A DNA stretch of 11,895 bases from Candidatus Galloscillospira excrementavium. Its GTDB lineage: Bacteria > Bacillota > Clostridia > Oscillospirales > Oscillospiraceae. This document shows positions 1-11,860 of this stretch, piece by piece. Every line of letters begins with the position of its first letter. Position 1 is the first letter of the stretch. Location of the stretch: positions 1 through 11,895 of the forward strand of contig DVHW01000201.1 in assembly GCA_018711785.1 (NCBI GenBank), read 5' to 3'. The notes beneath the pieces are model-generated. The model made no database searches, was not told the origin of the DNA, and was given only the letters and a program-made list of their open reading frames with translations. A program made the translations under genes and the position numbers.

Positions 1-40
1 CCTGCCGGCGGCGAAAAGCCGCCGGCAGGCGCCGGTTTTT
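1..40 (+). terminator. Intrinsic terminator hairpin at left edge
   Basis: Two perfectly complementary 12-base arms, CCTGCCGGCGGC (1-12) and its reverse complement (18-29), enclose a GAAAA loop. A run of five T follows at 36-40. Six bases separate the main stem from the T-run. An alternative pairing of CCGGCG (5-10) with CGCCGG (30-35) would put the stem directly against the T-run. It most likely ends a gene lying to the left of the window and separates it from the catabolic cluster. The window starts at the first stem base, so the stem may extend further left. Confidence 0.75.
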
Positions 41-74: not shown

Positions 75-103
75 TTGATTTTTGTATGCCTCTATGTTAG
101 ACT
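75..103 (+). promoter_or_regulatory. Putative sigma-A promoter of the catabolic operon
   Basis: TTGATT (75-80) and TAGACT (98-103) are separated by 17 bases. Each matches the consensus at four of six positions, and TG at 95-96 gives an extended -10 element. The -10 box lies in a short palindrome, TTAG-A-CTAA (97-105). The surrounding 41-160 region is AT-rich compared with the GC-rich genes, as expected for a promoter. Transcription from here would give a leader of roughly 115 bases before the aldolase gene. Confidence 0.5.
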
Positions 104-223: not shown

Positions 224-886
224 ATGGAACGCTATGAGAAGGTCCGCAGCGAGATCTGCGAGGTCTGCCGCCTCCTGTACGACCGGGGCTATGTGGTCAG
301 CAACGACGGCAACGTGTCGGTCCGGGTGGCGCCGGACCAGGTCCTCATCACCCCCTCCGGGGTGGGCAAGGGCCGCATGGAGCCCGATATGCTGGTCCTC
401 TGCGACCTGGAGGGCAATATTCTGGACGGGGACCGCTACCCCTCCTCGGAGAGCAAGATGCACCTGATGGTCTACCGGGAGCGGAGCGACGTGATGAGCG
501 TGGTCCACGCCCATCCCCCCCTGTCCACCGCCTTCGCCATCTGCCGCCGCCCCCTGAAGGAGCGGTATCTGGCCGAGATGGTGGTGGGGCTTGGGGAGAT
601 CCCGGTGACCGAGTTCGCCATGCTCTCCACCGAGGAGGTCCCCAACAGCGTCAAGCCCTTTGTCCACGACCACAACGCGGTGCTCCTGGCCAACCACGGG
701 GCACTGGCCTGGGGCCCCACCCTCCTCTCCGCCTTTGACCGGCTGGAGACCGTGGAGCAGACCGCCAAGGTGTTCTACTATGTGGAGCGCATCGGCGGCG
801 GGGTGGAGATCACCCAGGAGCAGGCCGACACCCTCCGGGCCAAGGCGGGCATGTACGCCAAGCTGGCCGGAAAGCGGGAGGGCTGA
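224..886 (+). CDS. Class II (FucA-like) sugar-phosphate aldolase
   Basis: This 220-residue cytoplasmic protein belongs to the class II aldolase/adducin family, which contains fuculose-1-phosphate and rhamnulose-1-phosphate aldolases. Expected landmarks are all present. The phosphate-binding motifs are DGNVSVR (28-34) and ITPSG (42-46). PSSE (73-76) carries the acid/base glutamate E76. Zinc ligands are H95 and H97 in HAHPP, and H158 in ANHG. Length matches E. coli FucA (about 215). The start at 224 is chosen because AAAGGTGAGG precedes it by a few bases; an earlier in-frame ATG at 137 lacks such a site and would add 29 low-complexity residues. The methionine-salvage dehydratase MtnB is in the same family, but HAHPP and VPVTEF-like segments fit an aldolase better. 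With an MtnA-type isomerase in the operon, the likely reaction is cleavage of a ketose-1-phosphate to dihydroxyacetone phosphate and a two-carbon aldehyde. It is similar in role to Ald2/DrdA of the DHAP shunt. Exact substrate is not determinable here. Confidence 0.88.
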   Translation: MERYEKVRSEICEVCRLLYDRGYVVSNDGNVSVRVAPDQVLITPSGVGKGRMEPDMLVLCDLEGNILDGDRYPSSESKMHLMVYRERSDVMSVVHAHPPLSTAFAICRRPLKERYLAEMVVGLGEIPVTEFAMLSTEEVPNSVKPFVHDHNAVLLANHGALAWGPTLLSAFDRLETVEQTAKVFYYVERIGGGVEITQEQADTLRAKAGMYAKLAGKREG

Positions 887-887
887 C

Positions 888-1688
888 GTGGGCCGCGGCG
901 GCGCCTCCACCGCCCTGCTGGCCCCGGAGCGGCGCTCGGAGATCCTCTCCCTGGTCCGCCGGAACAAGAGCGTGCTGGTCAAGGACCTGTGCGCCCGGTT
1001 CGGCGTCACCGGAGAGACCATCCGCAAGGACCTGACCCTCCTGGAGCAGGAGGGGGCCCTCATCAAGACCTACGGCGGGGCCTACGTCCAGGACGGGGTC
1101 AAAAACGAGGTGGACGCCACCATCCGGGAGACCCTCTACACCGAGTCCAAGGCCGCCATCGGCGCCGCCTGCGCCGCCCTGATTGGGGCGGGGGACACCC
1201 TGTTTTTGGACGAGAGCACCACCTGCCTGGCCGTGGCCCGGCGGCTGCTGGAGCGGGAATCCCTCACCGTGGTCACCAACTCCCTCAAGACCGCCTCCCT
1301 CCTGGCCGCCTCCGGCAAGGGCAAGCTGGTCCTCTCCGGCGGGGAGCTGGACCGGAAAAACCAGTGCTTTGTGGGCGGCGGGGCGGAGGATTCCCTGTCG
1401 GCCTACTACGCGGACAAGTGCTTTGTCTCCTGCCGGGGGGCCGACCGCGCCGCCGGCCTCACCGACGGCAGCGCGGCGGGCGGGCGCATCCGCTCTCTCA
1501 TGTTCCGCCACGCCAAGGAGCGCTTCCTGGTATTGGACCACACCAAGCTGGACAAGACCCATTTCTACCACATCTGTGATTTTTCCGCCGTGGACGCCGT
1601 GGTGGTGGATTTCCTCCCCACCGGGGTCTGGCGGGAGTTCTTCCGCGACCGGGGCATCCGGGTCCTCGAGGCCCTGCCCCGCCCGTGA
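888..1688 (+). CDS. DeoR-family transcriptional regulator
   Basis: This 266-residue regulator has a DeoR-type helix-turn-helix at about residues 14-65 (ERRSEIL, then VTGETIRKDL and the GGA turn). A DeoR C-terminal sensor domain follows, with the typical GDTLFLDESTT, VTNSL and LSGGEL segments. Members usually repress sugar or nucleoside catabolic genes and release DNA on binding a phosphorylated sugar. The GTG start at 888 has GGGAGG about five bases upstream and lies one base after the aldolase stop codon, suggesting translational coupling; no upstream in-frame start fits the gene layout better. Autoregulation of the operon is likely because the gene sits inside it. Possible binding sites are the inverted repeat at 118-153 and the palindrome at 5056-5071. 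The effector would plausibly be the pathway's pentose-1-phosphate or ketose-1-phosphate, which is inference. Confidence 0.9.
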   Translation: MGRGGASTALLAPERRSEILSLVRRNKSVLVKDLCARFGVTGETIRKDLTLLEQEGALIKTYGGAYVQDGVKNEVDATIRETLYTESKAAIGAACAALIGAGDTLFLDESTTCLAVARRLLERESLTVVTNSLKTASLLAASGKGKLVLSGGELDRKNQCFVGGGAEDSLSAYYADKCFVSCRGADRAAGLTDGSAAGGRIRSLMFRHAKERFLVLDHTKLDKTHFYHICDFSAVDAVVVDFLPTGVWREFFRDRGIRVLEALPRP

Positions 1689-1702
1689 GAAAGGAGGGCG
1701 CT

Positions 1703-2179
1703 ATGCAGCAGTACACTCCGGAGCGGCTCATCGAGCTGCTCCAGCTCCGTCCCCACCCCGAGGGGGGGCGGTACGCCTTTGTGGCCCGCAGCGGCGTCCC
1801 CCTCCCCGCCGGAGCCCTGCCCGGCATCGCCGGGGAGCGGGACACCTGCAGCTACATCTACTATTTCCTGGAAAAAGGCCAGATCTCCCGCTGGCACCAG
1901 CTCAAGGCCACCGAGGTGTGGACCTGGCACATGGGGGGCAGCCTGGAGATGACCCTGGGCGGCACGGGGGGCGCGCCGGTGCCTGAGCGGAAGCTCCGCC
2001 TGGGCCCCCGGCTGGAGGCAGGGGAGCCCCTCCAGCTCATGGCCCCGGCGGACCAGTGGCAGACCACCCGGGTCATCGACGGGGACTATGTGCTGGTCTC
2101 CTGTGTGGTCTGCCCGGCCTTCGAGGACGAGGACTGCCTCCTCCCGGAGCAGCCCCTCCCCAATGAAATCTACGGATAA
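1703..2179 (+). CDS. DUF985-family cupin protein
   Basis: This 158-residue protein is recognisable as a DUF985 (cupin_5) member from the HPEGGRY motif at residues 18-24 and the cupin segment WHQL..TEVW.WHMGG (about 64-79). H65, E71 and H76 are possible metal or substrate ligands. The family is small, cytoplasmic and RmlC-like in fold, and no general enzymatic role is established. The start at 1703 follows AAGGAGG (1691-1697) by five bases and lies 14 bases after the regulator's stop. Its position between regulator and dehydrogenase argues for a metabolic role in the same pathway, for example epimerising or ring-opening a sugar, but nothing in the sequence proves it. It is not KduI, which is a larger two-cupin enzyme, despite the KduD-like neighbour. 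Confidence 0.8.
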   Translation: MQQYTPERLIELLQLRPHPEGGRYAFVARSGVPLPAGALPGIAGERDTCSYIYYFLEKGQISRWHQLKATEVWTWHMGGSLEMTLGGTGGAPVPERKLRLGPRLEAGEPLQLMAPADQWQTTRVIDGDYVLVSCVVCPAFEDEDCLLPEQPLPNEIYG

Positions 2180-2195
2180 AAAGGAGGACAAGCCA

Positions 2196-2954
2196 ATGGA
2201 TCTCTCCCTGTTTTCCCTGGAGGGCAAGGCCGCCCTGGTCACCGGTGTCAGCCGGGGCCTGGGGCAGGCCATGGCCGTGGCCCTGGCCAAGGCGGGGGCC
2301 GATATCGTGGGGGTGGGGCTCCACGGCATGGGGTCCACCAAAGCCATGATCGAGGCGGAAGGCCGCCGGGCCTATGAGATCTGTGCCGATCTAAGCCGCA
2401 GCGACGGCGCTGCCGCCATCGCCCAGGAGGCCATCTCCGCCTTCGGCAAGGTGGACATTCTGGTCAACAACGCGGGCATCATCAAGCTCGCCGCCGCAGA
2501 GGACCACACCATGGCCGACTTCGACGCGGTGATGGAGGTCAACCTCCGCTCCCTCTTTCTCCTCACCCGGGAGATCGGGCGGCAGATGATCGCTCTGGGC
2601 CACGGGAAGATCATCAACACCTGCTCGGTCCAGTCCCTGAAGGGGGGCTCGGGGGACGCGGCCTATGTGGCCAGCAAGCACGCCGTCCACGGCCTGACCC
2701 GGGCCTGGGCCAACGAGTGGGGCCGGTACAACATCCAGGTCAACGGCATCGCCCCCGGGTACATGGTCACCGACAATACCGCCAAGCTCCGGCAGAACCA
2801 GGAGGCCGTGGCCGCCATCACCGCCCAGATCCCCCTGGGCAGGTGGGGGGAGCCGAAGGACCTGATGGGGCCGGTGGTGTTCCTGGCCTCGGCGGCCAGC
2901 GACTTTGTGAACGGCCACCTGCTGGTGGCCGACGGCGGGTACATGAACGCATAG
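2196..2954 (+). CDS. KduD-like short-chain dehydrogenase/reductase
   Basis: This 252-residue classical SDR has every family landmark. TGVSRGLG (16-23) binds the dinucleotide and NNAG is at 91-94. The catalytic residues are S144, Y157 and K161 (YVASK). The C-terminal half closely follows 2-dehydro-3-deoxy-D-gluconate 5-dehydrogenase (KduD): ANEW, IAPGYM, GRWG.P.DLMGP and VFLAS.ASD.VNG. The start at 2196 has AAGGAGG (2181-2187) in front and lies 16 bases after the cupin stop. No uronate-degradation genes are nearby, so KduD's own reaction is unlikely here. Within this operon it might reduce the two-carbon aldehyde released by the aldolase, or oxidise a sugar hydroxyl. The family assignment is firm; the substrate is not. 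Confidence 0.88.
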
Positions 2955-3016
2955 TGCCCCCGGCCAAAACAAATGCCAATTTCACTATAAATACAGAACA
3001 GATAGGAGTGTTTCGG

Positions 3017-4087
3017 ATGTCTGACGAGCTCAAGCAGGTCACCCACATCGACAACGTCCGCCTGGGGGACGACGAGAAGAGCGTGGTCATCATCGACCAG
3101 ACCCAGCTGCCCAATCGGACGGTGTACCTGACCCTCCGCACCGCCCAGGAGGTCTACGACGCCATCAAGCTGCTCCAGGTCCGGGGCGCGCCGGCCATCG
3201 GCATCTGCGCCGGGTACGGCATCTACGCCCTGGCCCGCCAGTGGGACCTGGACGACCCCGCCGCCTTCGCCGCCAAGTTCCATGAAACGGCGGAGTACCT
3301 CAACTCCTCCCGGCCCACGGCGGTCAACCTGAGCTGGGCCCTGAAGCGGATGGAGGGGGTCGTCACCGCCAACGCCGGCAAGTCCGTGGCCGAGATCCTG
3401 GACCTGCTGGGCGCCGAGTGCCGGGCCATCCACCAGGAGGACATCGAGATGTGCCGGAAGATCTCCGAGTACGGCCTCTCCCTCATCAAAGACGGCGACG
3501 GGGTGCTCACCCACTGCAACGCCGGCCCCCTGGCCACCTCCCGGTACGGCACCGCCCTGGGCCCCCTGTTCCTGGGCAAGGAGAAGGGCATGAATCTGCA
3601 CGTCTTTGCCGACGAGACCCGGCCCCTGCTCCAGGGCGCCCGGCTCACCTCCTACGAGCTGCAAAAGGCGGGCATCGACGTGACCCTCATCTGCGACAAC
3701 ATGGCCTCCATCGTCATGAAAAACGGCTGGGTCCAGGCCTGCTTCGTGGGCTGCGACCGCATCGCCGCCAACGGCGACGCGGCCAACAAGATCGGCACCA
3801 GCGGCGTGGCCATCCTGGCCAAGCACTACGGCATCCCCTTCTACGTCCTGGGCCCCACCTCCACCATCGACCTGAGCTGCCCCGACGGGGACCACATCCC
3901 CATCGAGCTGCGGGACCCCAGCGAGATCCGGGAGAAATGGTACGCCGAGCCCATGGCCCTGCCCGAGGTGAAGTGCTATAACCCGGCCTTTGACGTCACC
4001 GACCACAGCCTCATCGCCGGCATCGTCACCGAGAAGGGCATCTGCCGGGCCCCCTATACCGAGAGTCTGGCCGCTCTGTTCCGGTAA
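3017..4087 (+). CDS. mtnA: MtnA-family aldose-1-phosphate isomerase
   Basis: This 356-residue protein has the full length and motif set of 5-methylthioribose-1-phosphate isomerase, which converts the aldose-1-phosphate to methylthioribulose-1-phosphate. RGAPAIG and [11 protein letters not shown] are in the N-terminal half. THCNAG carries the catalytic cysteine C167, and [11 protein letters not shown] carries the catalytic aspartate D247. The 80-residue spacing equals that of C160/D240 in B. subtilis MtnA. PTSTIDL and [11 protein letters not shown] complete the C-terminal domain. The start at 3017 follows AGGAGTG; reading further upstream would overlap the dehydrogenase in another frame. No mtnK, mtnN, mtnC, mtnD or mtnW is in the window, so classical methionine salvage is not supported. 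With a phosphorylase next door, the substrate may be ribose-1-phosphate, 5-deoxyribose-1-phosphate or methylthioribose-1-phosphate. A ribose-1,5-bisphosphate isomerase is less likely on length and N-terminal motifs. Confidence 0.9.
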
Positions 4088-4119
4088 GCTGTCTGAACAT
4101 TTGAAAGGAGGTCCGTCTT

Positions 4120-4968
4120 ATGAACAAGGAAGTGGACGCCGCACGCCAGGGCCTGAGCGACGCCGAGACCGGCGGAGCCATCACCGAGGGCTTTCTCGCC
4201 CCGGGCATGGGGGAGTATGTCCTGCTGCCCGGCAATCCCAACCGTATCACTTTGATGGCCGGCCAGTGGGACGCCGGGTCCGCCAAAGAGTATGATCTGA
4301 ACCGGGGCTACCGGGCCGCCACCGGCACCTTCCGGGGTATTCCTATCTCCGCCATGTCCACCGGCATGGGCGGTCCCAACCTGGAGTTCCCCCTGACCAC
4401 CTTGGCCTCGGCGGGAGCCCACACCTTCATCCGGGTGGGTACCACCGGCACTATTCAAGAGAACATCAAGATTGGCGACATCATCATCAACGACTGCAAT
4501 GTCCGTTTGGACGGCACCTCCCAGCTCTACGTCCGGGAGGAGTACCCCTCCGCCGCCTCCTACGAGGTGGTGATGGCCTTGGTCCAGGCCTGCGAGAATC
4601 TGGGCTTCCCCTACCATGTGGGGGTGGGGTGCACCACCTCCTCCTTCTACGCCGGCCAGCTCCGCCCCAGCTTTGGCGGCTACAAGCGCCAGAGCATGGA
4701 CGCCGAGTTCGAGGACCTGCGGGCCGCCAAAGTACTCAACTTCGACATGGAGGGCTCCGCCCTGTTCACCCTGGCCCGGCTGTTTGGTCTGCGGGCGGGC
4801 ATGTGCGCCTCGGTGGTAGTCCACCGTCTCACCGGCGAGGTAGGGGACGACGGCGGAGAGGCCCGGGCCTGCCTGGTGGGCGCGGAGGCGCTGCGTCTGC
4901 TCGTCGAGTGGGACCGGAAAAAGGCTGCGGCGGGCAAGTCCCATCTGTTTCCTTCGGTGCTGAAATAG
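4120..4968 (+). CDS. udp: Uridine phosphorylase-family nucleoside phosphorylase
   Basis: This 282-residue enzyme of the NP-I nucleoside phosphorylase family is closest to uridine phosphorylase (E. coli Udp, about 253 residues). Such enzymes split a nucleoside with phosphate into free base and pentose-1-phosphate. Phosphate contacts are conserved: G38 and R42 in PGNPNR, R62, and R105/T108 in RVGTTG. Q180 and R182 in FYAGQLR match the Gln/Arg pair that reads uracil in Udp. NFDMEG (207-212) gives the ribose-contacting M210 and E211. The N-terminal 37 residues contain no histidine, so the residue equivalent to Udp H8, which binds the 5'-hydroxyl, is missing or replaced. The C-terminus is about a dozen residues longer than Udp. 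AAAGGAGGT upstream fixes the start. As last gene of the enzyme block it would feed pentose-1-phosphate to the MtnA-like isomerase. The exact nucleoside is uncertain, hence the symbol is family-level. Confidence 0.85.
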   Translation: MNKEVDAARQGLSDAETGGAITEGFLAPGMGEYVLLPGNPNRITLMAGQWDAGSAKEYDLNRGYRAATGTFRGIPISAMSTGMGGPNLEFPLTTLASAGAHTFIRVGTTGTIQENIKIGDIIINDCNVRLDGTSQLYVREEYPSAASYEVVMALVQACENLGFPYHVGVGCTTSSFYAGQLRPSFGGYKRQSMDAEFEDLRAAKVLNFDMEGSALFTLARLFGLRAGMCASVVVHRLTGEVGDDGGEARACLVGAEALRLLVEWDRKKAAAGKSHLFPSVLK

Positions 4969-5036
4969 TTCAGGCCGCAAGGGCCGCCGGCTCCAAAGAA
5001 AACCGCGATTTCTGGACATTTTGTGCAAATTACAGC

Positions 5037-5065
5037 TTGTCAAATCTCCACGCAGATAGTATGAT
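5037..5065 (+). promoter_or_regulatory. Strong sigma-A promoter of the nucleoside transporter
   Basis: TTGTCA (5037-5042) and TATGAT (5060-5065) are separated by exactly 17 bases; each box matches consensus at five of six positions. They lie in the only AT-rich part of the 4969-5212 gap. The start of transcription would be near 5072, giving a leader of about 140 bases to the lipoprotein gene. No convincing terminator follows the phosphorylase gene, so read-through from the enzyme operon may add to this promoter. Confidence 0.75.
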
Positions 5066-5071
5066 TACTAT
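5056..5071. promoter_or_regulatory. Palindromic operator over the -10 box
   Basis: ATAGTA (5056-5061) and TACTAT (5066-5071) are perfect reverse complements around a TGAT centre, giving a 16-base palindrome. It covers the -10 hexamer and the likely transcription start. A regulator bound here would exclude RNA polymerase. The DeoR protein of the neighbouring operon or an unlinked regulator could be the ligand. Confidence 0.5.
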
Positions 5072-5089
5072 ATTCCCACGGCCCGTTCG

Positions 5090-5157
5090 CGGAGGTCTGC
5101 CCGAATCGCTCCGGGGTCCGGTTGCAAAGGCGCGCCCTCTCCGACCGAAAGGCCCCG
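5090..5157 (+). other. Structured 5' leader of the transporter mRNA
   Basis: The GC-rich leader contains two overlapping possible stems. CGGAG (5090-5094) can pair with CTCCG (5109-5113). Alternatively CGGGG (5112-5116) with CCCCG (5153-5157), stacked near CGGT (5119-5122) with ACCG (5144-5147), can form a longer stem. They share bases 5112-5113 and so compete. No known riboswitch consensus is recognised, and in a GC-rich sequence such pairings may be fortuitous. Confidence 0.25.
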
Positions 5158-5212
5158 CCCGCGGCCCTGGGAGAAATCCACTCTTTCTTTATAAAAAGGA
5201 GGAAACTTGAAC

Positions 5213-6421
5213 ATGAAACTGAGCAAGCGTTTCGCCGCCCTGGGCCTCTCCCTTGTGATGGTCCTGGCCCTGGCCGCCTGCGGCAACGACTCCGCAGACG
5301 CCACCCCCACCCCCGCCCAAGGCACCGAGCAGGGTGGTGACACCACCCCCGCCCCCGATGACGGCGGCGACACTGCCGACGAGGGTCTGCGCATCGCCAT
5401 CGTCACCAGCCCCAACACCGTGGACGACGGGTCCTTCAACGAGGACAACTACAACGGTATCCTGAACTTTATCGCCTCCCGGGGCGACATCGACACTGTG
5501 ACTGCCCTTCAGGAGCAGACGGGTGACTCCGCCGCTGTGGCTCAGATGGTCAGCGACATTATCGCCGACTATGATGTGCTGGTGACCACTGGCTTCCAGT
5601 CCGCCGCCATCGGCCCCGTGGCCCAGGATAACCCGGATAAGTATTTCATCCTCGTGGACACCTTCCCCACTGATGCAGAGGGCGTGACCATCGAGGGCGG
5701 TCTGGACAATGTCTACGCCATGCAGTTTGCCGAGCAGGAGGGCGGCTTCTTCGCCGGCGTCGCCGCCGCCATGGAGACCCAGAGCGGCAAGGTGGCTGTG
5801 GTTACCGGCCAGCCCTTCCCCTCCAACGTCAACTATCAGTATGGCTTTGAGTCCGGTGTGAACTACGCCAATACTCACCTGGGTGCCAGTGCCGAAATCG
5901 TGGAGCTGGCCTCTTACGCCGGTGTGGACACCACCGGCACCAATGTGGGTGGCAACTATACTGGCAACTTTGTGGATGAGGCTGCCGGCAAGACCCTGGG
6001 CGAGGCTCTCATCCGTGAGGGCGTGGATATCATGTTCGTGGCCGCCGGCGGCTCCGGCAACGGTGTATTCGCTGCGGCCAAGGAGTCCGGCACCTGCATG
6101 GTCATCGGCTGCGACGTGGACCAGTATGACGACGGCGCCAATGGCGACAGCAACATCATCCTGACCTCCGCGCTGAAGAACATGGCCATCAACGTAGAGC
6201 GCCAGCTCAACGCCATCGTGGACGGTACCTTTGAGGGCGGCAACTACACTCTGGACGCCTCCACCGACTCCACCGGCTATGTCTCCGCCGAGGGCCGCCA
6301 GCAGCTGTCCCAGGAGACCCTGGACGCCCTGGCTGAGCTTTATCCCCAGGTGAAAGACGGCACCATTGTTCCCGCTTCCGGTTCCAATGGCTATACCCCT
6401 GAGGAATTCCCCGGCCTGTAA
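5213..6421 (+). CDS. BMP-family nucleoside-binding lipoprotein (ABC transporter)
   Basis: This 402-residue precursor has a lipoprotein signal: basic MKLSKR, a hydrophobic core, and the lipobox LAAC with C23 as the lipidated residue. An acidic Thr/Pro/Gly/Asp-rich tether (about 24-58) leads to a Bmp/PnrA-type periplasmic-binding fold. Family landmarks include DDGSFN (71-76), the AGGSGNGVF hinge segment, and GCDVDQ (299-304), whose aspartate region contacts ribose in homologues. K322 in ALKN is also a conserved position. Such proteins capture nucleosides outside the membrane for the ATPase and permeases encoded next. AGGAGG (5197-5202) lies ten bases before this ATG; a TTG two codons earlier is too close to the site. 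The gene is flanked by its own promoter and a strong terminator, so it is probably expressed above the membrane components. Confidence 0.92.
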   Translation: MKLSKRFAALGLSLVMVLALAACGNDSADATPTPAQGTEQGGDTTPAPDDGGDTADEGLRIAIVTSPNTVDDGSFNEDNYNGILNFIASRGDIDTVTALQEQTGDSAAVAQMVSDIIADYDVLVTTGFQSAAIGPVAQDNPDKYFILVDTFPTDAEGVTIEGGLDNVYAMQFAEQEGGFFAGVAAAMETQSGKVAVVTGQPFPSNVNYQYGFESGVNYANTHLGASAEIVELASYAGVDTTGTNVGGNYTGNFVDEAAGKTLGEALIREGVDIMFVAAGGSGNGVFAAAKESGTCMVIGCDVDQYDDGANGDSNIILTSALKNMAINVERQLNAIVDGTFEGGNYTLDASTDSTGYVSAEGRQQLSQETLDALAELYPQVKDGTIVPASGSNGYTPEEFPGL

Positions 6422-6461
6422 ATTTTCCTGTCCCTTTCAGATCTTCCTTAGCGTCTGATCC

Positions 6462-6520
6462 CGGGGCGCTCCGTATGTTTGACTGTCTGGTCCCTTCGGA
6501 GCGCCCCGCTTTCTTATTTT
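6462..6520 (+). terminator. Intrinsic terminator between binding protein and ATPase
   Basis: CGGGGCGCTCCG (6462-6473) and CGGAGCGCCCCG (6497-6508) form a perfect 12-base-pair stem around a 23-base loop, followed by the T-rich tract CTTTCTTATTTT. It lies 41 bases after the lipoprotein stop. Partial termination here would yield abundant binding-protein transcript and less of the ATPase and permeases. No good promoter is seen between it and the ATPase gene, so some read-through is expected. Confidence 0.85.
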
Positions 6521-6557
6521 GCTTTTCCAATGCTCCTCCTTTTTCTTGGTCATTCGG

Positions 6558-6612
6558 CTGAGGTGTTTTGATCCAAGTCCGGTACCGCCGGGCTGGGATG
6601 AGGCCACCTCAG
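6558..6612 (+). other. Alternative hairpins ahead of the ATPase gene
   Basis: CTGAGGTG (6558-6565) is an exact reverse complement of CACCTCAG (6605-6612). The same right arm can instead form a tight local hairpin, TGAGG (6599-6603) with CCTCA (6607-6611) around three bases. The two structures exclude one another and end about 15 bases before the ribosome binding site AAGGAG (6627-6632). A role in RNA processing or stability of the distal transcript is possible but unproven. The rest of the 6421-6642 gap shows no gene. Confidence 0.3.
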
Positions 6613-6642
6613 GAAAATCAAGCAAGAAGGAGCGTGATGTGG

Positions 6643-8184
6643 ATGGCGGACGAGTATATCGTGGAAATGCGGCATGTGACCAAGCGTTTCCCGGGCATCA
6701 TCGCCAATGACGACATTTCTCTTGGCATCAAAAAGGGGGAGATCTTCGCCCTGTTGGGAGAAAACGGCGCAGGCAAGTCTACTCTGATGAGCATGCTCTT
6801 CGGGATGTACGAGCCTGATGAGGGTGAGATCTATGTCCGTGGCAAGCTGGAGCACATCTCCTCGCCCAACTATGCCACCAAGCTCAACATCGGCATGGTG
6901 CACCAGCATTTCAAATTGGTGAGCAACTACACCATCGCAGAAAACATCATCCTTGGCATCGAGCCAAAGCGCCGTTTAGGGCTCCTCCCCGTGGTGGACA
7001 TCAAAGGCACCATCGAGAAGGTATCTGCCCTGTCCAAGCAGTACGGCCTGGAAGTGGATCCCACGGCCAAGATCGAGAACATCAATGTCTCCACCCAGCA
7101 GCGGGTGGAGATCCTGAAGATGCTCTGGCGCGAGGCAGAAATCCTCATCTTTGACGAGCCCACCGCCGTCCTCACTCCCCAGGAGATCGAGTTCCTGCTC
7201 CAGATCATCCGTGGCCTGCGTGACAGCGGCAAGACCATTATCCTGATCACCCACAAGCTGGAGGAGATCAAGCAGGTGGCCGACCGCTGTGCCATCCTCA
7301 ACCGCGGTAAGCTCATCGATGTGCTGGACGTGGCCACCACCTCCACTCAGACCATGGCCAACCTGATGGTGGGCCGCGAGGTAGACTTTGTGGTAGACAA
7401 GGCCCCCCCAAGGTACGGTGCGGAGGTCCTGCGGGTGGAGCATCTGACCGTGAAGAACCGCGACAACTTCCCGGTGGTGAAGGATGTCTCTTTCTCGGTC
7501 CGTGCCGGAGAAATTTTTGCTATTGCAGGCGTTTCGGGCAACGGTCAGGTGGAGATCGCCGACGCAGTGGCCGGCATGGCCGATGCGGCCGAGGGCACCA
7601 TCACCCTGAACGGCCAGGACATCACCCATATGAGTGTGCGTCAGCGCACCGACTTGGGCATGTCCTACATCCCGGAAGACCGACAGAGTGTGGGCCTTAT
7701 TTTGGACTTTACTCTTCAGGACAATCTGGCACTTAAAACTTACTATAAGGAGCCCTTCTGCCAAAAGGGCATCCTCAACCGAGCCGCCTTTGCCCAGTAC
7801 GGAGACCGGCTCATCGGGGAGTACGATATCCGGTCTGGGCAAGGCAGAGAAACTGTGGTCCGTTCCATGTCGGGCGGCAACCAGCAGAAGGCCATCGTGG
7901 CCCGTGAGATCGAGCTGGAATCCCCGCTGATGATTTTTGTCCAGCCCACCCGGGGCCTGGACATCGGCGCCATTGAGAATATCCACCGTCAGATCCTGGC
8001 GGAGCGGGACAAGGGCCGGGCCATTCTGCTCATCTCCCTGGAGCTGGATGAGATCATGGGGCTGGCTGATACCATCGGAGTCATTTTCAGCGGCGAATTG
8101 CTCAAGATCGCTCCGGCAGACACCCTGACCACCAACGAGGTAGGCCAGTTCATGATGGGGGTGAAGCAAGATGAAGCGGGTTAA
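6643..8184 (+). CDS. nupO: Nucleoside ABC transporter ATP-binding protein (two domains)
   Basis: This 513-residue cytoplasmic protein is a tandem ATPase of the YufO/NupO and RbsA type that powers BMP-dependent nucleoside import. The first domain has Walker A GENGAGKST (39-47), Walker B ILIFDEPT (167-174) and switch histidine H204. Its signature region reads NVSTQQR (148-154) instead of the usual LSVGxQQR. The second domain has the degenerate Walker A GVSGNGQ (296-302) expected in this family, an intact signature MSGGNQQ (409-415), and QPTRGLD (434-440). Thus one composite ATP site looks complete and the other degenerate. The start is ambiguous: AAGGAG (6627-6632) is ten bases before ATG 6643 and four before ATG 6637; the former spacing is preferred. 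The 3' end overlaps the next gene by 14 bases, indicating translational coupling with the permease. Confidence 0.93.
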   Translation: MADEYIVEMRHVTKRFPGIIANDDISLGIKKGEIFALLGENGAGKSTLMSMLFGMYEPDEGEIYVRGKLEHISSPNYATKLNIGMVHQHFKLVSNYTIAENIILGIEPKRRLGLLPVVDIKGTIEKVSALSKQYGLEVDPTAKIENINVSTQQRVEILKMLWREAEILIFDEPTAVLTPQEIEFLLQIIRGLRDSGKTIILITHKLEEIKQVADRCAILNRGKLIDVLDVATTSTQTMANLMVGREVDFVVDKAPPRYGAEVLRVEHLTVKNRDNFPVVKDVSFSVRAGEIFAIAGVSGNGQVEIADAVAGMADAAEGTITLNGQDITHMSVRQRTDLGMSYIPEDRQSVGLILDFTLQDNLALKTYYKEPFCQKGILNRAAFAQYGDRLIGEYDIRSGQGRETVVRSMSGGNQQKAIVAREIELESPLMIFVQPTRGLDIGAIENIHRQILAERDKGRAILLISLELDEIMGLADTIGVIFSGELLKIAPADTLTTNEVGQFMMGVKQDEAG

Positions 8185-9349
8185 TCCGGTGACCCGGGGG
8201 ATCCTGTTCCTGATGGGGGATGAGAAACGCCAGCGCATCACCATTCCCATCCTGGCGGTTCTCATCAGCCTGATCGTCAGTTCTATCGTGCTGCTTGTCA
8301 TGGGTAAAAATCCGTTCGAGGCTTTTGCCAGTTTTCTCCAGGGTTCTGGTGTCATTCCCAAACGGGCATACGGTGCCAAGCAAAATATGTTTACGGATTT
8401 TCTGGGGCTGGTCGACGCGTGGACGCCCATGCTCTTCGCCTCCCTGGCGGTAGCTGTGGCTATGCGGGCGGGCTACTTCAACATTGGCGTGTCTGGCCAA
8501 ATGCTCCTCTCCGGTTTTATCGCCACCGTGGCCGTCGGATATGCCGAAACCCTGCCTGCCGCTGTGGCCAAGCCTTTGGTCGTCCTCATCGGTCTGGTCA
8601 CCGGTGCTGTTGTGGCCGCCTTCATCGGGTTCCTTAAGACCAAGTGGAACATCAACGAAGTTGTTTCGGCCATTATGCTCAATTACATCATTCGATATGT
8701 TGTCAGCTTTTTTGTCAAGACCGCCATTAACAATCCTAACACCCGGCAGTCCTGGCCGGTGAGCGAGGCATCCCGTCTTACTCTTCAGGACGTGGAGATC
8801 GGCGGGCTGAAGATGGATATCCCACTGGGGATCATCCTTGCGGTGGTCGCCGTGATCCTGGTCCAGTTTATGTTTTCCAAGATGAAGCTCGGTTTTGAGC
8901 TGCGGGCTATTGGCGGCAACCCGATAGCCTCCAAGTACGCTGGTATCAATGTGGGCCGCAGCACAATTTTGGTCATGGCGCTCTCCGGGGCCCTGGCCGG
9001 GCTGGCCGGTGTCACCTATTATCTCGGCTATTACGGTTCTATCCAACCCGATGTGCTCATCTCCACTGGCTTTGATGCCATCGCTGTGTGCATCCTCGGC
9101 AACTCCAACCCCATCGGAATCATTTTCTCCTCCCTGCTCATCTCTGTCATCGACAAAGGCAGCACCTATCTCCAGTCTTCGATTGGTGTGCGGGCGGAGA
9201 TCGCCTCTCTCATTACTGGCCTGATCCTGCTCTTCTCGGCCTGCGGTGCCTTCTTTGCCTATCTCATCAACCGCAGCCGCCAGCGGGAAGAGGATACGAA
9301 AAACCTCGCCGCTGGCCGCCAGGCCGGTGGAAAGGAGGCCCAAGCATGA
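8171..9349 (+). CDS. nupP: Nucleoside ABC transporter permease (NupP/YufP-like)
   Basis: This 392-residue integral membrane protein belongs to the BPD_transp_2 family of nucleoside and ribose permeases. Hydrophobic segments are at roughly 22-45, 83-98, 104-124, 132-154, 160-181, 214-236, 261-286, 295-322 and 330-354. The conserved cytoplasmic coupling loop RAIGGNP..A.YAGINVGR begins at R245 and should dock the ATPase. GYFNIGVSGQM (about 101-111) is another family signature. A Lys/Arg/Glu-rich tail extends from about 355. It starts inside the ATPase gene (14-base overlap) and its stop overlaps the second permease's start by four bases. The two permeases form the membrane channel as a heterodimer. 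Confidence 0.93.
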   Translation: MKRVNPVTRGILFLMGDEKRQRITIPILAVLISLIVSSIVLLVMGKNPFEAFASFLQGSGVIPKRAYGAKQNMFTDFLGLVDAWTPMLFASLAVAVAMRAGYFNIGVSGQMLLSGFIATVAVGYAETLPAAVAKPLVVLIGLVTGAVVAAFIGFLKTKWNINEVVSAIMLNYIIRYVVSFFVKTAINNPNTRQSWPVSEASRLTLQDVEIGGLKMDIPLGIILAVVAVILVQFMFSKMKLGFELRAIGGNPIASKYAGINVGRSTILVMALSGALAGLAGVTYYLGYYGSIQPDVLISTGFDAIAVCILGNSNPIGIIFSSLLISVIDKGSTYLQSSIGVRAEIASLITGLILLFSACGAFFAYLINRSRQREEDTKNLAAGRQAGGKEAQA

Positions 9350-10314
9350 CTTATGTCAACATGATCATCATTGATGGCCTCTCCTTCGCTATTCCGCTGT
9401 TCATCATGGCTATCGGCGGCATCTATTGCGAGCGCAGTGGTGTGACCAACCTGGCCGTGGAAGGCTTTCAAGGCATGGGGGCTTTTACCGGTGCGCTGGC
9501 GGCAACTCTGGTTTCCGGTTTCTTCGCTGCGGACAGCCAAGTGCCTATGGTCATTGCCATGCTTTTCGCTTTCCTCGGCGGCGGACTGTATGCCATCGTT
9601 CACGCCGTGCTTTGCGTCAAATTCAAGGCAAATCAGGTCATCAGCGGCGTGGTCATCAACATTCTGGCCACCGCCCTGACCACCTTCCTCACCAGTGAGA
9701 TCTCCACGGTTCTCACCGGCCAGGCCTCCAATCGCTTCCGCCTGATCACCTCGGTGCGCTGGACTGTCCCCGTTCTGTCCGACATCCCGGTACTGGGGGC
9801 CATCTTCACCAATGTATATCCCTTTGAGCTCATCATCATCGTGGTGGCTGTGATCGCTTGGTACGTGCTCTATAAGACCCCCTTCGGTATGCATCTGCGG
9901 GCCTGCGGGGACAACCCCCACGCGGTGGACGCAGCCGGTGTGGAGGTGGGCCGGGTTCGGTTCCTGGCGGTCATGCTCTCGGGTGCCCTGTGCGGTCTGG
10001 GCGGCATCTGCTTTGCCTACTCCATCTCGGTGCAGTTTTCCTCCGCTATTTACATGGGCTATGGCTATCTGGCCATCGCCGCTCTGATCTTCGGCAACTG
10101 GCAGATCCTGCCCACCCTGGGCGCCTGTCTGATTTTCGGCTTCGCCCGCTCCGGCGGTACCGCTCTGACCCAGATCATGGAGCTTCCCTCTGCTTTTACC
10201 GACATATTTATGACCTTGCCCTATGTGGTCACACTGCTTCTGCTGGTGTTCTTCTCCAAGAGCAACCGGGCACCCCGGGCTCTGGGCGAGATTTACGACA
10301 AAGGGAAGCGTTGA
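9346..10314 (+). CDS. nupQ: Nucleoside ABC transporter permease (NupQ/YufQ-like)
   Basis: This 322-residue membrane protein is the partner BPD_transp_2 permease. Near the N-terminus it carries the family segment ERSGVTNLAVEGFQGMGAF (about 29-47). The coupling loop RACGDNP.AVDAAGVEVGR starts at R185. About eight hydrophobic segments are visible, including one near 161-177 (ELIIIVVAVIAWYVLY) and one near 282-300. AAAGGAGG (9331-9338) lies seven bases ahead of the ATG, which overlaps the upstream stop as ATGA. A short basic C-terminus (YDKGKR) ends the gene, and no clear terminator follows in the 82 bases before the next gene. Confidence 0.93.
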   Translation: MTYVNMIIIDGLSFAIPLFIMAIGGIYCERSGVTNLAVEGFQGMGAFTGALAATLVSGFFAADSQVPMVIAMLFAFLGGGLYAIVHAVLCVKFKANQVISGVVINILATALTTFLTSEISTVLTGQASNRFRLITSVRWTVPVLSDIPVLGAIFTNVYPFELIIIVVAVIAWYVLYKTPFGMHLRACGDNPHAVDAAGVEVGRVRFLAVMLSGALCGLGGICFAYSISVQFSSAIYMGYGYLAIAALIFGNWQILPTLGACLIFGFARSGGTALTQIMELPSAFTDIFMTLPYVVTLLLLVFFSKSNRAPRALGEIYDKGKR

Positions 10315-10396: not shown

Positions 10397-11860
10397 ATGA
10401 AGAAGCATCGTTCCCGTTTCCTGTCGGGTCTGCTGGTGGTCGCCATGGTGGCGGCGCTGGCAATCCCCGCCGCCGCTGAGATGGTCCAGCTCAATGCCAC
10501 CACCGGCGTCACCATCTATGTGGATGACCAGAAGGTCGACCCCCGCAACTCTCAGGGGGATCAGGTGGATGCCCTTCTGACCGGCGGCACCACTTACCTG
10601 CCCATCCGCGCCCTGGGCGACGCCCTGGGCAAGGACATCGGCTGGGACGAGTCCACCACCACCGCCTATGTCAGCGGCTATGAGGCCGACCCCAAGGCGG
10701 CGGAGTACCTGGAGGAGTACTTTGACATCGCGCCCCTCTCCGGCACTGTGAGCCGCGCCGCCTTTGACGCCGCGCTGGAGGCCATCGGCGGCTCCGCCAC
10801 CGAGGGCACCGGCGACCTGACCGTGGCCGATGCCGTGGTGGCTGCCGTGAAGGCCGCCGGTCTGGATGAGCTGGCTCAGACCTACACCCGCGACAACAAC
10901 GCCAAGGCCAACGAGCGCATTGCTGCCTACGGCCTGCCCGCCATGGAGGGCGAAGCGGCCGCCTATGTGGCCGCCGCTCTGGACAGCGACCTGGCCTATG
11001 CCACCTTCGACTTTGACGCCGCTCTGGACGCCGAGACCGCCAACACCCTGCTGATGAACGCCGTCAACATCTCCGGCCAGGGCCGCCGCTATCTGGGCCG
11101 GGCCAGCGACAGTGATATCTACTCCAAGCTCCAGGCCGCCTGGGACTCCTTCGGCAATTTTGACGATCCTGTCCTCTCCTCCCTGGGCGAGCAGCTGGTC
11201 CTCCAGCAGGCTTCCACCGGCTACAACCTGAAGTTCGACGGCTATAACGCCAACTTCCTGTCCGAGTACACCCTCCAGTACGGCCACAGCGACATCACCC
11301 ACGCCGTGCAGCTCATCGCCCTGCTCAACAGCGAGGGCATCGACGCTCTGATCCAGCTGGAGCCCAAGACCTCCATCTATGAGTACATGGTGGAGTGGGG
11401 CGATCCCACCCAGGTGGAGTCCACCCCCACTTATGAGCTGCGCCAGATCGAGGGCACCGACCGCTGGCTCTGCTACGCCACCGAGTACGATATGAAGCTG
11501 GAGTTTGACTCCATCGAGGACAAGAACGCCTTTGACGGCATTGTCAACGAGTACGCCAAGAAGTGGATTGCCAACGAGAATGAGGACGGCTCCTTCACGC
11601 CCTCCCTGCTGGCAGGTGCCTGGTGGCAGCCTCTGTACACCTCCACCGTCCCCATGGCGGATACTGAGGCCTACACCCTCATTCAGGACAACGTCATCCA
11701 CAACGGCGCGTACAGCATCCACCCCTTCAGCCTGGCTGGCAACAACGCTGAGATCGTGCGGGTCGTCTCTGAGGAGGCCCCCGACCTGAGCGTGGACGTA
11801 GTTGACCTCTATGTCAACATGGCCTTCTTCCGTTACCTGAACGGCGACGACAGCGAGTAA
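10397..11860 (+). CDS. Secreted stalk-domain (CuAO_N1-like) protein of unknown function
   Basis: This 487-residue protein starts with an export signal: MKKHRSR, a hydrophobic core, and likely cleavage after AAA (25-27). Residues about 37-92 form a copper-amine-oxidase N-terminal-like (stalk) domain, shown by VTIYVDDQKVD, the TYLPIRALGDALG core (66-78) and a closing strand ending at V92. This module occurs on many clostridial cell-surface proteins and is not itself an oxidase. Residues about 100-215 are Ala/Asp-rich helices with segments such as VSRAAFDAAL and LTVADAVVAAVKAAGL that faintly recall S-layer-homology repeats; this is a weak impression. The last 270 residues are not recognised. They are acidic, rich in aromatic residues and end in DDSE. 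No transmembrane anchor or sorting motif is seen. AAAGGAG (10380-10386) lies ten bases before the ATG. Codon use is strongly biased to C- and G-ending codons, compatible with high expression. The 35 bases after the stop contain no gene. Confidence 0.75.
   Translation: MKKHRSRFLSGLLVVAMVAALAIPAAAEMVQLNATTGVTIYVDDQKVDPRNSQGDQVDALLTGGTTYLPIRALGDALGKDIGWDESTTTAYVSGYEADPKAAEYLEEYFDIAPLSGTVSRAAFDAALEAIGGSATEGTGDLTVADAVVAAVKAAGLDELAQTYTRDNNAKANERIAAYGLPAMEGEAAAYVAAALDSDLAYATFDFDAALDAETANTLLMNAVNISGQGRRYLGRASDSDIYSKLQAAWDSFGNFDDPVLSSLGEQLVLQQASTGYNLKFDGYNANFLSEYTLQYGHSDITHAVQLIALLNSEGIDALIQLEPKTSIYEYMVEWGDPTQVESTPTYELRQIEGTDRWLCYATEYDMKLEFDSIEDKNAFDGIVNEYAKKWIANENEDGSFTPSLLAGAWWQPLYTSTVPMADTEAYTLIQDNVIHNGAYSIHPFSLAGNNAEIVRVVSEEAPDLSVDVVDLYVNMAFFRYLNGDDSE

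Follow-up and report, generated by a model that had tools for sequence, protein, structure and literature searches.

To what use might Candidatus Galloscillospira excrementavium, whose genus is placed in the Oscillospiraceae, put imported nucleosides? The question is raised by the 11,895-nucleotide contig DVHW01000201.1, hereafter the window (the whole stretch of DNA that was analysed). On its forward strand, at positions 224–10314, it encodes an ATP-binding cassette (ABC) importer of the BMP/PnrA type, a uridine-phosphorylase-like nucleoside phosphorylase, an MtnA-type aldose-1-phosphate isomerase and a class II aldolase (open reading frames, Pfam and NCBIfam scans; Table 1). These four components, listed in a first-pass annotation of the same DNA, are all present; a cupin and a short-chain dehydrogenase/reductase (SDR), which lie between the aldolase and the isomerase, were missing from that annotation.

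We propose, with moderate confidence, that the locus encodes a kinase-free dihydroxyacetone phosphate (DHAP) shunt with its own importer, which would act on nucleosides taken up from outside, probably pyrimidine nucleosides whose 5' group is altered. From gene content, protein families and conserved residues, which are read directly from the DNA, the following order of reactions can be predicted. The nucleoside would be brought in by the BMP-type ABC importer; the phosphorylase would use phosphate to convert it to the free base and a derivative of ribose-1-phosphate, which MtnA would open to a ketose-1-phosphate; and the aldolase would cleave the latter to DHAP and a two-carbon aldehyde, whose predicted fate is perhaps reduction by the SDR. 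The chain of enzymes itself is likely. As to the predicted substrates, pyrimidine nucleosides are favoured by the cytidine deaminase genes at related loci and by the uracil-binding triad of the phosphorylase, and a changed 5' group by the evidence from active sites and isomerases. We consider a 5-deoxy sugar, or one modified in another way at C5, more probable than unmodified ribose.

Conservation of the gene neighbourhood

Gene neighbourhoods were compared among 33 bacterial loci that encode the same phosphorylase subfamily (test loci), 40 loci of ordinary uridine phosphorylases from the same order (controls) and 47 archaeal loci. The same query set was run on all three groups, in which contig ends truncate some of the loci, and gene clusters (cytidine deaminase, purine nucleoside phosphorylase (PNP) and others) were named by scanning one or two members each and assigning the remainder by BLAST. 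An MtnA-family gene was found at 19 of the 33 test loci and at none of the controls (Fisher P = 5e-9). The association persisted when sequences were collapsed at 80% identity (13/19 vs 0/17, P = 1.3e-5) and at 65% identity (9/12 vs 0/5, P = 0.009). The 14 test loci without a match are L142, where an MtnA match cut by the contig end stands outside the 19 and would make a 20th, and L124, L125, L126, L127, L129, L133, L135, L137, L144, L147, L149, L154 and L185. Aldolase genes occur at 17 test loci (at 16 together with MtnA), cytidine deaminase genes at 14, BMP genes at 13, trimeric PNP genes at nine, and genes for DeoD and for proteins like MtnK (methylthioribose kinase) at three each. A cytidine deaminase gene was found at a single control locus; the archaeal set yielded IF-2B genes at two loci, cytidine deaminase genes at two and aldolase genes at none.

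Loci with MtnA come from Oscillospiraceae, Lachnospiraceae, Erysipelotrichaceae, Solobacterium, Spirochaetales, Pseudonocardia, Reyranella, Rhizobiaceae and Moorella, and the functional gene set recurs across several bacterial phyla. The repeated co-occurrence of phosphorylase, MtnA and aldolase without mtnK, which the first-pass annotation had proposed to look for, is thus found, and its concern that the gene order might be unique to one genome is lifted: the exact order, seen only in the genus Candidatus Galloscillospira, is common to the window and a sister species (locus L122, genome G001), whose contig follows it from the aldolase gene and stops at the BMP gene. Outside the genus, the closest locus (L123, in Lachnospiraceae bacterium 10-1; 74% identity) has a DeoR gene on the other strand followed by genes for the phosphorylase, aldolase, cytidine deaminase, isomerase, BMP protein, ATPase and two permeases. 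In a member of Spirochaetales (JAISRN010000147.1; L130:1197–2999, forward strand), a class II aldolase is fused to an MtnA-family isomerase in a 600-residue protein encoded beside the phosphorylase.

Several loci showed other combinations of genes. At L137, L147 and L149, with no MtnA match nearby, the neighbours of the subfamily phosphorylase are a threonine-dehydrogenase-like enzyme of the Zn-dependent kind and a pyridoxal-phosphate protein, which at L147 scores over the cut-off for PatB C-S lyase (TIGR04350, 347 vs 340); a sulfur-containing nucleoside is a conceivable substrate there. L036 (1056–6705 and 9026–10842) encodes xanthine phosphoribosyltransferase, a BMP importer, MtnA and a DeoD in which Ser replaces His, and may be regarded as a purine counterpart of the window. 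At L058 (6611–14893) an ABC-importer-like ATPase (29% identical to that of the window) shares the locus with MtnA, a class II aldolase and a RuBisCO-like protein that scores below the MtnW cut-off.

Base specificity of the phosphorylase

None of the nine NCBIfam matches of the window phosphorylase was to an MtnP model, and MtnN reached only 19.0 bits; a monomer structure model confirms the uridine phosphorylase fold. The enzyme keeps residues at the known phosphate, sugar and uracil positions, some of whose roles we presume. In Escherichia coli uridine phosphorylase, uracil is read by Gln166, Arg168 and Arg223 (passages of PMC5238616; papers are cited here by PubMed Central identifier). The corresponding triad, Q180/R182/R236 in the window, is kept in 33/33 subfamily relatives and 47/47 archaeal enzymes; the window enzyme has a uracil-type base pocket.

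The partner gene that recurs at the test loci (cluster u5) encodes a cytidine deaminase, its L123 member scoring 129.3 bits against TIGR01354 (cut-off 113.65). At five loci (L123, L128, L134, L139 and L143, three of them with aldolase) the phosphorylase is accompanied by cytidine deaminase and isomerase genes, and the purine phosphorylase queries gave no match. The window itself, contig C121 among the 281 contigs of a 1.82 Mb genome (G000) that is 70.8% complete, has no cytidine deaminase gene, and TIGR01354 gave no match in this incomplete genome. As a separate observation, 11 of the 14 cytidine deaminases of the module replace a tyrosine that is found in 28/28 controls (30 loci, two without a usable frame); the sequences diverge around the nucleoside-binding motif at L124–L126, L128, L131, L132, L136, L138, L139, L145 and L146. 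We take this tyrosine to be linked to the 5'-OH of the nucleoside, an assumption that we do not use as evidence.

Kinase and phosphopentomutase genes

The ten window proteins scanned matched no kinase family, and MtnK was absent from the window genome and that of the sister species by TIGR01767 search (both are 71–73% complete). TIGR01767 matched over its cut-off in nine of the 31 genomes searched, and in three (L131, L134 and L136) of the 21 genomes with MtnA at the phosphorylase locus, namely those of the window, the sister species, the other 18 of the 19 loci and L142. The kinase-free entry is well supported, and the kinase-free set of phosphorylase, isomerase and aldolase with a BMP importer, as first described for this window, is borne out and repeated in other phyla. 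At another locus (L053:2716–4692, reverse strand), a class II aldolase is fused to a methylthioribose kinase (TIGR01767 407.9, cut-off 275) beside MtnA, which makes it a candidate bifunctional DHAP-shunt protein.

Phosphopentomutase (DeoB, TIGR01696) gave no match in the window genome or the sister genome, both incomplete. Over the cut-off it was found in 9/31 genomes, in 5 of the 21 whose locus has MtnA and in 30/119 relatives of the window genome; the Fisher test, made on 5/23 because L124 and L125, without MtnA nearby, were counted, gave P = 1.0. Since these frequencies mark the absence of DeoB as the background state, we rejected it as support for a bypass of phosphopentomutase, which the first-pass annotation had suggested and which gains nothing from these counts.

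Two classes of isomerase

The window isomerase has Cys167 and Asp227 at the catalytic positions and the class A motifs VRGAP, SRPTAVN and DRIAANGD, and scores 178.7 bits against TIGR00511, below the cut-off of 314.1. Catalytic Cys and Asp are conserved in all 19 aligned isomerases near the phosphorylase subfamily, of which those of L122, L140, L141 and L148 are of class A, 14 are of class B, with TQSxGP, ADVITMDGY and similar motifs, and that of L163 is closer to class A. Class B proteins fell below the TIGR00512 cut-off in the five examples tested (L123, L130, L131, L134 and L155). Compared with solved structures, the class B isomerase of L131 scored 146 bits against MtnA and 117 bits against the archaeal ribose-1,5-bisphosphate isomerase group. 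It matched at E < 1e-60 in 14 of 391 genomes of the taxonomic class, always with the TQSxGP motif; the 14 neighbourhoods contained MtnK-like genes in three cases, PNP in nine, aldolase in nine and the window-type phosphorylase in none. On a Lactobacillus intestinalis plasmid the order is mtnK, class B isomerase (44% identity) and fuculose-phosphate aldolase, which resembles the 5-deoxyribose clusters in the passages of PMC6079011. Because a class B gene lies in this mtnK–isomerase–fucA cluster, we infer a tie between class B and 5-deoxyribose-1-phosphate, which by exchange would extend to class A. Both classes occur in the sister genome, where class A accompanies the window-type phosphorylase and a class B enzyme (34% identical to the window MtnA) is encoded beside PNP.

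The 5' group of the substrate

Uridine phosphorylases carry an N-terminal His, which we take to be His8 of the E. coli enzyme and to contact the 5'-OH from the neighbouring subunit. This His is present in 40/40 ordinary uridine phosphorylases and 47/47 archaeal enzymes, and in only 2/33 members of the subfamily (L163 and L185); the window phosphorylase lacks it and has no His at all in its first 60 residues. Its loss in the subfamily argues against ordinary ribonucleosides. In the structure model, residue 20 of the window enzyme aligns approximately with residue 4 of its E. coli counterpart; because the N-terminal segment reaches the neighbouring subunit, a monomer model cannot show its site. 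A parallel change was seen in DeoD: the enzymes encoded beside MtnA have Ser in 11/11 cases read, with PS[AE][CS] at the His place, and those away from MtnA (no MtnA motif within loci of ~3.7 kb) have His in 16/16 read, the motif having been obtained in 19/30 loci. That the change is consistent in both phosphorylase families suggests that this position is under selection. The His of trimeric PNPs was also considered as a third marker of the 5' group and was rejected, being absent in 26/30 controls and kept in 3/15 module enzymes; in that comparison all clustered PNPs were taken as module, though L124 and L125 have no MtnA in the flank, and two control rows (L295 and L300) are themselves MtnA neighbours.

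A number of observations weigh against a kinase-free route for nucleosides with an altered 5' group. In 14/33 subfamily members a His is found one column earlier, and the window phosphorylase has an acidic residue, Glu16, near the column of the lost His, so 5'-OH binding may be kept differently. The Moorella enzyme (L163) retains the His with isomerase and aldolase nearby; a second phosphorylase type, encoded at eight loci, keeps it in four (L124, L125, L132 and L136) and lacks it in four, that of L136 sitting beside aldolase and MtnA; and the trimeric PNPs do not discriminate. The window MtnA belongs to class A, not class B. MtnK-like genes lie within the phosphorylase loci L124, L125 and L136 (at L136 with coordinates that agree with the TIGR01767 match), so that the kinase is not always absent, and a more distant relative of the phosphorylase (43.8%), on a Rhizobium plasmid, adjoins deoC and a hydantoinase-type amidase without MtnA. 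We know of no natural 5'-deoxypyrimidine nucleoside that is an abundant gut compound. The contact of the His with the 5'-OH is our own presumption and does not appear in the passages on PNP to which we turn next. They state that each site of hexameric PNP receives His4 from the adjacent subunit and that this residue forms bonds with hydroxyls of the sugar, among which they do not name the 5'-OH (PMC6193948; PMC3434127); according to one of them, the usual contact of adenosine's 5'-OH is water, and in one enzyme it is Arg43 (PMC6193948 or PMC3434127).

Alternative readings of the locus

A real, though less likely, alternative is that ordinary ribonucleosides (uridine, or cytidine after deamination) are converted through ribose-1-phosphate and ribulose-1-phosphate to DHAP and glycolaldehyde, bypassing phosphopentomutase. 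Cytidine deaminase genes, at 14/33 test loci against 1/40 controls and at 11 of the 19 loci with MtnA, fit ordinary cytidine and uridine, as does the L123 deaminase, which is ordinary in the columns compared; the conserved uracil triad (its role after PMC5238616), the five loci with deaminase and isomerase and no purine phosphorylase match, and the BMP-type importer point the same way, and a haloarchaeal FucA homologue splits ribulose-1-phosphate into DHAP and glycolaldehyde (PMC9700705). However, the N-terminal His that is retained in all archaeal relatives is missing from its column in 31/33 members of the subfamily and also from DeoD beside MtnA, the partner isomerases are MtnA or of the type also found beside mtnK, our literature search gave no MtnA activity on ribose-1-phosphate, and DeoB absence is not enriched. 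The earlier suggestion of ribose-1-phosphate from ordinary nucleosides is favoured by the deaminase and the triad, and the loss of the His argues against it.

We consider it unlikely that the 5' group makes no difference to any of the three enzymes (phosphorylase, isomerase and aldolase), so that ordinary and 5'-deoxy oxo-base nucleosides would be consumed alike. Class II aldolases of this group do take many aldehydes (passages of PMC6079011 and PMC9700705), and at L124, L125 and L136 the phosphorylase shares its locus with an MtnK-like kinase, cytidine deaminase, trimeric PNP, an amidohydrolase of the 5'-deoxyadenosine deaminase superfamily and adenine deaminase, but the consistent replacement of the N-terminal His in two phosphorylase families would point to selection there. 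It is highly improbable that aldolase, cupin, SDR and MtnA serve a sugar-phosphate or methylthioribose route of their own, with the phosphorylase and importer as mere neighbours: genome G015 does have aldolase, cupin, SDR and MtnA with no phosphorylase or importer match within 20 kb, and a promoter-like element sets the importer genes apart, but the phosphorylase gene lies directly 3' of MtnA in the window and the sister species, and the two are associated at 19/33 loci in many arrangements.

Layout of the window and accessory genes

The aldolase keeps Glu76, His95, His97 and His158 (alignment to 4c24 and 6btd), presumably the Glu and the three metal-binding His of the family. With the window enzyme and the eight others scored, all the NCBIfam aldolase models shown stayed below their cut-offs, and the aldolase subfamily was accordingly set aside, undecided, as a marker of the substrate. 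The SDR is a candidate reductase of the two-carbon aldehyde or of a sugar intermediate, a role that is a guess; for the cupin we can only guess. The DeoR protein may regulate the locus.

With a Bmp lipoprotein, a double ATPase and two permeases, the architecture of the importer is complete for the BMP/PnrA type. The closest solved structures to the lipoprotein are Treponema pallidum TmpC (2fqw) and the lipoproteins 6yab and 6ya3. We take nucleosides to be the ligands of TmpC/PnrA, and by homology the window protein would bind them too.

Promoter-like boxes, identified by eye, precede both the aldolase and the BMP gene. In a two-sequence alignment, also read by eye, the sister species has similar boxes at the equivalent places (TTGTTT / TAAACT before the aldolase and TTGCCA / TATTAT before the importer), so two transcription units are likely. 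A terminator-like hairpin occupies window positions 1–29, and an Rfam scan of the window gave no match over the gathering scores. Beyond the importer, an open frame at 10397–11860 encodes a secreted-looking protein that may be related to the copper amine oxidase N-domain.

Table 1. Predicted genes and promoter-like elements of the window.
Feature	Position	Strand	Evidence
Promoter-like boxes TTGATT / TAGACT, 17-base spacer, upstream of aldolase	75..103	+	By eye; putative function
Class II aldolase, FucA/DrdA/Ald2-like	224..886	+	PF00596 (Aldolase_II) 173.8 bits
DeoR-family regulator	888..1688	+	PF00455, PF08220
DUF985 cupin (Cupin_5)	1703..2179	+	PF06172 125.2 bits
SDR oxidoreductase, KduD-like	2196..2954	+	TIGR01832 311.1 bits, below cut-off 338.85
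MtnA-type aldose-1-phosphate isomerase, class A	3017..4087	+	TIGR00512 404.9 bits, cut-off 279
Uridine-phosphorylase-like nucleoside phosphorylase, distinct subfamily	4120..4968	+	TIGR01718 209.3, below equivalog cut-off 280.3; PNP_UDP_1 110.2
Promoter-like boxes TTGTCA / TATGAT, 17-base spacer, upstream of importer	5037..5065	+	By eye; putative function
BMP/PnrA-type substrate-binding lipoprotein	5213..6421	+	PF02608 147.1 bits
ABC importer ATPase, two ABC domains	6637..8184	+	PF00005, 2 stretches
ABC importer permease 1	8171..9349	+	PF02653
ABC importer permease 2	9346..10314	+	PF02653

Implications and comparison with known systems

It is quite possible that bacteria of several phyla have in common a dedicated route that imports pyrimidine nucleosides and salvages them by ketose-1-phosphate cleavage; such a route would draw either on a 5'-altered pool in the gut or on ribulose-1-phosphate without phosphopentomutase. 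The first form, if true, would mean an unrecognised gut pool of 5'-deoxy or otherwise 5'-altered cytidines and uridines that are deaminated, phosphorolysed and cut to DHAP. It would also mean bacterial release of 5-fluorouracil from 5'-deoxy-5-fluorocytidine and 5'-deoxy-5-fluorouridine (capecitabine metabolites), and the phosphorylase subfamily would mark gut bacteria able to free 5-fluorouracil from fluoropyrimidine prodrugs. In the second form, bacteria would have a new way of bringing RNA nucleosides into glycolysis.

In the DHAP shunt of E. coli ATCC 25922, entry is by a nucleosidase with MtnK or by MtnP, followed by MtnA and Ald2, and the operon, which includes a putative transporter, supports growth on external 5'-deoxynucleosides (passages of PMC10986504 and PMC12632272). 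The window resembles it in the MtnA-type isomerase and class II aldolase that would yield DHAP and an aldehyde, and the variant with MtnP has already been described. It differs in its uridine-phosphorylase-like entry, in the BMP ABC importer, SDR, cupin and DeoR genes and in that no MtnK was found; with neither MtnP nor MtnN/Pfs plus MtnK in the window, it is a variant rather than a standard member. The kinase-free entry and the linked transporter, which the first-pass annotation had set against the described shunt, have both been published (PMC6079011; PMC10986504), and E. coli already grows on external 5'-deoxynucleosides.

The 5-deoxyribose salvage of Bacillus thuringiensis (DrdK–DrdI–DrdA) likewise clusters an isomerase with a class II aldolase, and the passages of PMC6079011 list clusters with a phosphorylase and a transporter too. 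Here a uracil-type phosphorylase stands in place of the kinase. Among the isomerases compared, that of the window is of class A and 14/19 of those at module loci are of class B.

We know of no link between the fluorometabolite pathway of Streptomyces cattleya and MA37 and a pyrimidine phosphorylase or an importer. Its likeness to the window lies in an isomerase that would act on a 5-substituted ribose-1-phosphate, there a fluorinated 5-deoxy sugar by the enzyme order that we presume. The pathway is thought to recruit methylthioribose-1-phosphate isomerase (passages of PMC7408626).

In the non-carboxylating pentose bisphosphate pathway of haloarchaea, guanosine is converted through ribulose-1-phosphate to DHAP and glycolaldehyde, the uridine phosphorylase homologue prefers guanosine and the two-carbon aldehyde is reduced (passages of PMC9700705). 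There, as proposed here, a uridine phosphorylase homologue feeds a nucleoside-sugar route that ends in a FucA-like aldolase. The arrangement seen in the window was not described in the titles and abstract openings of the open-licence papers searched, and a pyrimidine-type entry to the DHAP shunt appears to be new. The uridine-phosphorylase-like subfamily, often accompanied by cytidine deaminase, would be a new entry enzyme ahead of that shunt.

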